Part shown: one piece after another, positions 15,169 through 16,797 of the stretch | Position numbering within the stretch: position 1 is the first letter of the stretch | How the letters are laid out: the number at the start of each line of letters is the position of its first letter | Source of the DNA: a virus | DNA length: 23,388 nucleotides | IMG/VR virus record: IMGVR_UViG_3300044628_000444 | Coordinates: 1 to 23,388 of that record | Strand: one strand, 5' to 3' | Position numbers and translations under genes: made by a program | Notes under the pieces: generated by a model | Databases searched by the model: none | What the model saw: only the letters and a program-made list of their open reading frames with translations | What the model was told of the DNA's origin: nothing

Positions 15169-16547
15169 CTAAAATCTTGAAACACTCTTATACTCTGCAT
15201 CTCTACCAACAACAACAAGCGGTTTGATAATACCTGTTTGGAATCGGGCGTATTGTGAAGCGAAAACCGTTGTAATCAAATAACGTGTTAAGTCAACTAT
15301 GTGGCCATAAGGCTGGTAGCTTACTTTGGTGACTGGATCGGTTACTGTCTTTTTATCTACTTTACCGTTTTTGTCTTCCTTTGTGTTTTCAAAGTCTAAT
15401 ATTGCCACGCGGCAGGATTCATCCACAACAAATGAAATGCCTTGCTCATTATACTCTAAAATAGCATTAAAAAAGTCGGCACTTGGTCGCACGTTCGGGT
15501 TTGATTTGCTTACGCGCCTAATTGGTTTAACTTCATCTAATTCGTTAATCAATAACCGGAACAAGTCAAAGCCCTTTTCTTGCTTAACATCATCCTTTTG
15601 TGAGGTGCTATCACCACAAACGTAAACAAAGCCGCTATGCCTCCATTGTCGAAGTTTGGCTAATATTGTTCTGCCCATTACTTTGGTGGTGTTATCTGGA
15701 TTCTTTAGCGCAATGCAGTCAATCATTCTTATTTCATTGTCATCACTAATTTGAAAGATGCCACATGGAAAGTATGGGTTTACGTTTTCATCGAATGATA
15801 ACCAAATAGCTAATGATGGGTCGTATGGAACAGTTAAGGAATGCTTAATAGTTGACCATGACTTCAGAAACTCTCCACCAAAATCTACTTTGCCCCATTC
15901 GCCCAATACATAAACTTTGTGTAAATTGGGGTTTGCTTTTACCCTTTCAGTTAAGTGATAGATGTAATCGGCATCAAGGAATGAATTGTCTTTGTAGGTC
16001 GTGTGCAATATCAATGTTTCTGTATCCGGTACATCAAAGAACCTGCCCTTTAACCAGTGCTGCTCCGATATTGGATTAAATGTGATAATGAACTGCTTGT
16101 AGTTTTCGGTTTCGCCTCGCACCCTTAACTCTAACTGATTAAAATCTAATTCATCCAATTCGGTAGCTTCCTCGCACCAAACAGATGTAATGCCCGCAAT
16201 GGATTTAATCTTTTCGGGGTCATCCATACCAGCACATAAGATTTCGTTGCCTGTTGCGTTATGGGTGAATCGCATCTCGGACTTATTTATGGTAAATTCG
16301 CTAAATATATCGTATTCTAATAGCTTATCTACTAATAGTTGATAGATACTGTTACGAATAGTCGTTGCCACCTTTCTAATGCAAAGTATGCGATGCCCGC
16401 GTTCGGTTGTAACTCGCAGGATTATCTTTTGAACTGCTGCGATTGATTTGCCTGAACCAATCAGCCCGCCCCGCCTTTCAATACCAAGTATCTATGTTGG
16501 CTTTGAATAGCGGGGCGATATGCTTCATTTAGTTTTACTTTTGTCAT
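15169..16547 (-). CDS. terL: terminase large subunit, frame interrupted in Walker A (recoded or mutated)
   Basis: TerL cuts and pumps DNA into the head. The gene occurs in two frames. The first starts at ATG 16547 and encodes 28 residues (MTKVKLNEAYRPAI... LVLKGGAG), ending at TGA 16463-16461. The second is open from CTG 16464 onward as LIGSGKSIAAVQKI and runs to 15169. Joining GGC (16466-16464) to TCA at 16455, skipping 8 nt, gives a 456-aa protein with a perfect Walker A (KGGAGSGKS), Walker B (SVWCEEATE, about residues 119-127) and a nuclease domain with candidate Asp at about 250 (SFDENVNP), 310 (VCGDSTS) and near the C-terminus (HIVDLTRY). Length then fits the family. Either translational recoding, an 8-nt insertion, or an assembly error explains it. 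A start at GTG 16371 would lose Walker A and is not credible. Confidence 0.85.
16456..16517 (-). promoter_or_regulatory. candidate translational bypass signal in terL
   Basis: A 51-nt hairpin spans 16517-16467 on the minus strand. It has an 8-bp stem CGCCCCGC/GCGGGGCG, a 2x2 internal loop, TTCAA/TTGAA, an A-A mismatch, a G-U pair plus CCAA/TTGG, and a 9-nt loop. It covers codons 11-27 exactly. The next codon is GGC (Gly28), immediately followed by UGA. GGT (16458-16456) is a possible landing codon, read by the same glycine tRNA type as GGC, after which TCA-GGC-AAA-TCA encodes Ser-Gly-Lys-Ser. These parts (stop after take-off, matched glycine codons, adjoining 5' hairpin) parallel T4 gene 60. 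Confidence 0.5.
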
Positions 16548-16797
16548 CAACAAATTCTAATTGCCATAGTTTTATTTGTTCTCCTTTCGTAGTCAAATCA
16601 GCATTAACTGAAGTTGGTATCAGTTTGGCTGCTAATTTGTAAAATTCGGTTGTGTTTTCTTTGGCCCAATTAGCAAGGTTTGCGTTTTCATCGCCTTGTA
16701 ACTCATTGAACGCGACCTCAAACGCTTCCTTAACCGATTTGGTCAGTTTGTTTGTTGCTCCCTTTGGTTTGCCTTTATTGCCTTTAGTAAAGCCCAT
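16525..16797 (-). CDS. terS: terminase small subunit
   Basis: This 90-aa protein precedes terL and is probably the DNA-recognition subunit of the packaging motor. The N-terminus is basic and Gly-rich (MGFTKGNKGKPKGATNKLTK), a DNA-contacting region similar to DUF5681-like N-termini. It is followed by a helix (VKEAFEVAFNELQ), a second helix (ENTTEFYKLAAKLIP) and a tail with a C-terminal helix (EQIKLWQLEFV). It is shorter than most small terminases, but position and layout fit. Its stop overlaps the start of the terL frame by 23 nt, so terL translation may be coupled. A promoter and palindrome lie just upstream. Confidence 0.65.
   Translation of the reverse strand: MGFTKGNKGKPKGATNKLTKSVKEAFEVAFNELQGDENANLANWAKENTTEFYKLAAKLIPTSVNADLTTKGEQIKLWQLEFVDDKSKTK

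Follow-up and report, generated by a model that had tools for sequence, protein, structure and literature searches.

The window, the whole stretch of 23,388 nucleotides that we analysed, carries a large terminase gene (terL) whose coding sequence is split between two reading frames at the Walker A motif. The genes and features at this locus, with the states found among the 33 distinct carriers of the interruption described below, are as follows.

16525..16797, minus strand: small gene of 90 aa at the terS position, assigned from its position and a weak PHROG match
16464..16547, minus strand: ORF1, terL codons 1-28 (MTKVKLNEAYRPAIQSQHRYLVLKGGAG), ending with the proposed take-off Gly; N-terminus homologous to uninterrupted relatives
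16466..16518, minus strand: predicted RNA hairpin, from folding, codon resampling and pairing across carriers
16518-16510 with 16474-16466, minus strand: outer stem of the hairpin, 8 G-C pairs and one U-G
16507-16503 with 16481-16477, minus strand: middle helix of the hairpin
16501-16497 with 16487-16483, minus strand: top helix of the hairpin
16464..16466, minus strand: proposed take-off codon GGC (carriers: GGC 31, GGT 2)
16461..16463, minus strand: stop codon UGA, in the A site at take-off (carriers: UGA 30, UAA 3)
16459..16460, minus strand: 2-nt spacer TT (carriers: TT 31, AT 2)
16456..16458, minus strand: proposed landing codon GGT (carriers: GGC 21, GGA 10, GGT 2)
15169..16458, minus strand: ORF2, remainder of terL starting with the Walker A Gly (GSGKS...), Terminase_3, 429 codons plus a stop at 15171-15169

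Layout of the interrupted terminase gene

From its ATG at 16547, which lies within a 23-nt overlap with the 90-aa gene at the terS position, terL runs for 28 codons and ends in K-G-G-A-G before the stop. ORF2, in a different frame, reads GSGKSIAAVQ... and is a Terminase_3 protein (PF04466, 5.3e-46; PHROG 3717, 3e-60) with Walker A present. The positions given in a first-pass annotation of this DNA were all verified. In the window, the frame of ORF2 is open only from 16491 on and contains no ATG, GTG or TTG near the P-loop, the first being a GTG at 16371; without recoding, the ATP-binding loop would thus be lost. In genomes of this kind, gene finders would predict a shortened terL that lacks Walker A.

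The IMG/VR record contains one copy of terL. Its neighbours encode a BT4734-like domain, DUF3127, Gp157 and a RecT-like protein, and the nearest annotated terL genes include those of Flavobacterium phages, which suggests a phage of Bacteroidota as the source.

Conservation of the interruption and of the upstream hairpin

A search for relatives retrieved 80 loci, 39 of which contained an identical 8-nt interruption (GGY-TRA-NT, inserted ahead of the GGN of GSGKS). The remaining loci that span the junction read an uninterrupted KGGAGSGKS, with the exception of L081, which we dropped as a further variant because of several frame breaks (indels) within its terL. Likewise, a pattern scan of IMG/VR independent of gene family yielded 40 contigs, every one of them in this same terL family; with the window added, the carriers amount to 33 distinct sequences, which were drawn from many metagenomes and all have an open ORF2. 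A GGY codon followed by UGA or UAA occurs in all 33, so that the stop survives a switch from TGA to TAA. ORF1 is 25-34 codons long in the carriers and retains the coding for RYLVLKGGAG in nearly all of them. Sf6 gp2 (4IFE/4IDH) aligns at the junction as KGGRGSGKS, with no gap, and the distant terL sequences that we read (ca. 51% identity and lower) are also uninterrupted there. We further identified a natural uninterrupted allele, L011, with an ORF1 of the carrier type and a nearly identical ORF2, that reads KGGAGSGKS.

Beyond this family, a scan of viral contigs allowing gaps of 0-30 nt after the stop revealed no additional terL case, its extra matches (L118-L121) being due to chance, and a scan for the core element did not find it in any gene other than terL; L275-L277, recovered in the latter, contain a chance GC hairpin and bear no relation to terL. 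The exact pattern was absent from 84,980 bacterial and archaeal genomes, and a nucleotide search of annotated phages gave no match to the interruption.

Frame breaks in metagenome contigs usually derive from assembly errors or gene inactivation, both of which the first-pass annotation had listed as alternatives. Nevertheless, the stop and the hairpin are conserved in 33 distinct sequences of many sources, and the dN/dS of ORF2 is 0.040 both in carriers and in non-carriers, denoting strong purifying selection with and without the interruption. This indicates that the interrupted genes yield a working protein, and excludes an assembly error or a dead gene to the extent that we give these explanations practically no weight.

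Immediately 5' of the interruption, the hairpin takes up the final 17-18 codons of ORF1, with the foot of its stem at the first nucleotide of the take-off codon. Pair C16517-G16467 closes an 8-bp GC stem, to which an extra U-G pair (16518:16466) is added; the GC base of 8 bp described in the first-pass annotation is therefore retained, while its count of 18 bp becomes 20 pairs in three helices. For the complete 118 nt, the predicted folding energy is -39.2 kcal/mol (z -4.3). We resampled synonymous codons leaving the protein unchanged, with 5000 recodings for the window and 2000 for each other class. The window hairpin scored -30.3 against a recoding mean of -12.3 (sd 3.6), and none of the 5000 recodings was as good (z -5.0). 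The carrier classes gave z values of -4.5 to -5.7 (0/2000 each), as against -1.1 to +1.3 for six non-carriers; the uninterrupted L011, with its carrier-type ORF1, was intermediate (z -2.4). Overall, conservation of the 8 nt goes along with that of the hairpin, and relatives without the former are also without the latter. For the carriers, this is the reverse of the outcome that the first-pass annotation had named as refuting its reading, namely uninterrupted relatives and no conservation of the hairpin.

Pairing is also maintained across carriers. Across 14 distinct carrier rows, pairing in the outer and top helices is complete (100%, compared with 31-52% when slid), the middle helix being excluded from this formal count because its register differs between classes. 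The class with GCT and UAA/UGA preserves pairing through changes from C-G to A-U (in which the 5' change replaces Arg by Ser), from C-G to U-G and from G-C to G-U, with two-sided covariation at one pair in one lineage. Synonymous diversity among carriers is 0.145 over the hairpin codons and 0.35-0.40 downstream, versus 0.379 in non-carriers, and carrier pairs with an ORF2 pS above 0.6 differ by merely 1.7 nt across the 61-nt element. No conserved hairpin was found 3' of the junction, where the mean z over 25 sequences was -0.02, and we consequently attribute a small second hairpin downstream in the window to chance. An Rfam search gave no match.

Two minor observations concern the junction itself. 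The contigs of L032, L057 and L061 start ca. 20 nt or less from it, and the shared element may break assembly. Additionally, the Walker A Ser codon (16455-16453 in the window) alternates between TCN and AGY across all relatives, with five or six codons used, while the neighbouring Lys is fixed; the Ser codon perhaps switches because a nuclease target is avoided in this way.

Probable mode of recoding

Only shifts that leave a remainder of 2 on division by 3 restore the frame. A P-site tRNA-Gly displaced by +8 finds GGN in 33/33 carriers, and by +2 or +5 it finds GG in none. A -1 shift lands on GGG in 29/33 and on UGG in 4/33, and a -4 realignment meets GGC in 33/33, as a by-product of the sequence GGG GCN; the +8 step is thus not singled out by anticodon pairing alone. 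Only +8, however, yields KGGAGSGKS, as in every uninterrupted relative, in L011 and, as KGGRGSGKS, in Sf6 gp2. This fit to the uninterrupted P-loop, and a stop that is kept through the change between UGA and UAA, favour a +8 bypass. The landing codon matches the take-off codon at GG in 33/33 carriers, differing in the third base where it is GGA (10/33).

A backward programmed frameshift at the GGY-stop, either of -1 or of -4 to the upstream GGC, with the hairpin as stimulator, would produce KGGAG-LI-GSGKS or KGGAG-GLI-GSGKS. The frame would be restored and the loose Walker A pattern GxxxxGKS still matched, in addition to the pairing just described for 29/33 (-1) and 33/33 (-4) carriers. Nonetheless, the sites (G_GCG_GGC, G_GCG_GGU, G_GCU_GGC and G_GCU_GGU) contain no slippery heptamer X_XXY_YYZ for -1, which would also place tRNA-Gly on UGG in four sequences of the GCT class (L039, L067, L068 and L073). 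Stimulators of -1 frameshifting are normally located 3' of the site, unlike the hairpin, which is 5' of it. Besides, either shift would add 3-4 residues to a P-loop that is KGGAGSGKS in all uninterrupted relatives and aligns ungapped with Sf6 gp2; the added codon varies from Ile to Asn (ATT to AAT), and the duplication of a Gly codon exactly 8 nt apart would be left unexplained. We thus regard a backward shift as unlikely.

Re-initiation after the UGA would give two separate polypeptides, or an ORF2 that is sufficient by itself. The stop does adjoin ORF2, and one class has an in-frame UUG at the junction. Against this, the first standard start appears only at codon 13-61 of ORF2, beyond Walker A, and the CTG/CTA/TTG at the junction is not conserved as a start; moreover, the beta strand preceding the P-loop would be lost, yet ORF1 retains its coding (RYLVLKGGAG). 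These data make re-initiation very improbable.

We assign a slightly lower probability still to a removal of the 8 nt from DNA or RNA, by programmed excision or as an on/off switch in the population, followed by ordinary translation. In its favour, L011 has nearly the genotype of L013 minus the 8 nt, and carriers and non-carriers are intermixed. But L011 also has synonymous changes (GGC GCA versus GGG GCG), expected of recombination with a non-carrier rather than of an exact excision, and selection on the hairpin at the codon level is a prediction of recoding. To our knowledge, there is no example in phages of RNA splicing of 8 nt.

Taken together, the sequence comparisons make programmed translational bypass, by a Gly-to-Gly hop of 8 nt with participation of the hairpin, the probable best explanation. 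This was also the main reading of the first-pass annotation, which had proposed a hairpin-aided hop over the stop similar to that of T4 gene 60, and the joint conservation of interruption and hairpin makes it the best fit. The ribosome would read ORF1 up to the GGC/GGU Gly codon that precedes the stop; peptidyl-tRNA-Gly would then release, the ribosome advance 8 nt and the tRNA re-pair on the next GGN, with decoding restarting at Ser to give KGGAG-SGKS, an ordinary Walker A. The hairpin could act as a spring: by the time of take-off its top would have emerged from the ribosome, and the GC-rich base of 9 bp would zip only if the ribosome moves forward, which would favour an 8-nt step. In an illustrative calculation, which involves no simulation, the refolding gain over 8 nt was -17 to -20.5 kcal/mol with 8 nt shielded upstream and -6 to -18 with a shield of 10-14 nt; random terL sites, used as a control with the 8-nt shield, gave -1.5 +/- 1.7, with a minimum of -9.7 kcal/mol. 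We identified no nascent-peptide signal resembling KKYK in ORF1. Its peptide is conserved, though constrained also as part of TerL, and the nascent chain of 25-34 residues may contribute to the bypass.

Relation to known bypass systems and possible mobility

The evidence for natural bypassing in phages comes so far from T4 gene 60, which is well proven, and Hau3, which is likely. T4 gene 60/mobA is the closest system to the carriers in logic. In both, a stop comes directly after the Gly codon of take-off (proposed, in the carriers) and the landing codon is also Gly (PMC5009743, PMC11194080); they share as well a link to a homing endonuclease, an insert in a conserved phage gene and a 5' stem-loop, which in T4 is proposed to draw the mRNA along as its stem becomes complete. 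Our zipping model for the terL hairpin fits this published 'motor' modelled for the T4 5' stem-loop (PMC5009743). They differ in that T4 gene 60 encodes a topoisomerase and has a gap of 50 nt, an ORF1 of 46 codons, a UAG stop and matched GGA codons, whereas the carriers show a gap of 8 nt, an ORF1 of 25-34 codons, UGA/UAA and a GGC/GGU take-off with an unmatched GGA landing in one third of them, all in terL. The take-off and 3' stem-loops and the KKYK signal of T4 were not found in the carriers; the stem-loops are a property of the T4 case rather than of bypassing generally.

The closest system in place is the terL of Streptomyces phage Hau3, for which bypassing is considered likely (PMC5009743), so bypassing in terL already has a precedent. 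Its sequence (NC_018836, 2329-3995) reads GGC TTACTCC GGT AAG GAC, a GGC-to-GGT step of 10 nt over UUA, and the intact terL of its relatives Amela and phiScoe10 encodes KGWGKDPLL (KGWG-KDPLL at the break). It shares with the carriers the gene, the Walker A region and the short Gly-to-Gly hop, and differs from them in having UUA instead of a stop in the A site, a Streptomyces host and another terminase family. The Hau3-type break is also present in the terL of GreenWeasel and BroPlease (ON526970 and ON526974), where the two parts are annotated as separate genes.

Two other systems show a more partial likeness. The byp elements of Magnusiomyces capitatus mitochondria are, as in the carriers, many short bypassed inserts with codons that are sometimes unmatched (PMC5009743); nevertheless, they are mitochondrial, occur in many genes and are reported to be independent of mRNA context (PMC5009743), unlike the carriers, which are confined to terL and have a conserved abutting hairpin. 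Synthetic stop-hops (PMC5009743) are alike in their arrangement of matched codons around a stop, with 9 nt being read as one residue, but these are laboratory constructs, and the carriers are natural and conserved, with 8 nt and a hairpin.

The open-access papers that we searched do not describe bypassing in these phages. The novelty lies in a conserved and probably hairpin-driven version, of 8 nt and at a stop codon, which dozens of alleles represent in a further phage group, and in its putative endonuclease link. If the bypass is true, it would be only the second or third natural case known in phages; the family combines dozens of natural alleles and their uninterrupted sisters, usable as controls, with a gap that is very short and a single dominant hairpin. 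The carrier family should make the idea of the hairpin as a motor testable, by comparing stem length with hop length.

Carriers and non-carriers alternate on the ORF2 tree, with 18 changes, at least 15 of them forced by well-supported branches, and carriers cluster no better than with shuffled labels. In the pairs L013/L009 and L026/L012, terS and ORF2 are alike while ca. 100-150 nt between them differ, indicating the exchange of a short cassette.

Two carriers, L005 and L053, are the only ones to encode an endonuclease of 168 aa between terS and terL, with HNH_3 (3e-16) and NUMOD4 (1e-10) domains, which PADLOC labels as a homing endonuclease. Its presence in 2/33 carriers versus 0/27 non-carriers is not significant alone. 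L005 and the non-carrier L008 show 98-100% identity at 850-1000 nt upstream and 100% identity at 250-800 nt downstream, diverging in between, where L005 carries the endonuclease and the 8 nt. Similarly, L005 and L053 are 92.9% identical in the endonuclease and 94.7% in ORF1 plus the gap, but 81% in terS and 82.5% in the later ORF2. Both patterns look like homing with co-conversion. Relatives of the endonuclease elsewhere are less than 50% identical. Since it is missing from the window and from most carriers, its role is one that we infer.

As DNA, the segment of ca. 100 nt behaves as an exchangeable cassette, which likely originated as a gap that spoiled a nuclease target in terL and was tolerated because it could be bypassed. 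The first-pass annotation had suggested that recoding may limit motor synthesis; the evidence is at least equally suggestive of an element with mobile or selfish origins. The sequences themselves show that the interruption and the hairpin are conserved, that terL is functional, that the segment moves between backgrounds and that it is linked to an endonuclease, while the hop, the spring mechanism and the protection from a nuclease are features that we infer from them. As a tentative proposal, which we consider possible rather than likely, the carriers might contain a minimal mobile cassette, made of a coding hairpin of ca. 100 nt plus the 8-nt gap, that was spread among terL genes by a homing endonuclease; the GC base of 9 bp would set the 8-nt hop, with no need of an exact codon match, and motor genes, as exemplified by Hau3, would be recurrent bypass sites. 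This would be a second possible pairing of a homing endonuclease with bypassing and, if true, would define a recurring route for selfish DNA into essential genes.

Other insertions were observed in or around terL. L070, L071 and L074 contain an in-frame insertion of ca. 324 aa near the C-terminus (ORF2 codons ca. 388-711) that is intein-like, with weak matches to Intein_splicing/HINT below the Pfam cut-off; in L071 it coexists with the 8-nt interruption. With three terL genes carrying this insertion, mobile elements have thus hit terL repeatedly. The non-carrier L034 has an ORF with an HNH domain (8.5e-7) immediately upstream of terS (836-1384). Finally, the endonuclease contig L005/L116 contains ca. 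420 nt inserted 3' of terL (L116 3488-3884), with two ORFs of 82 and 56 aa on the reverse strand.
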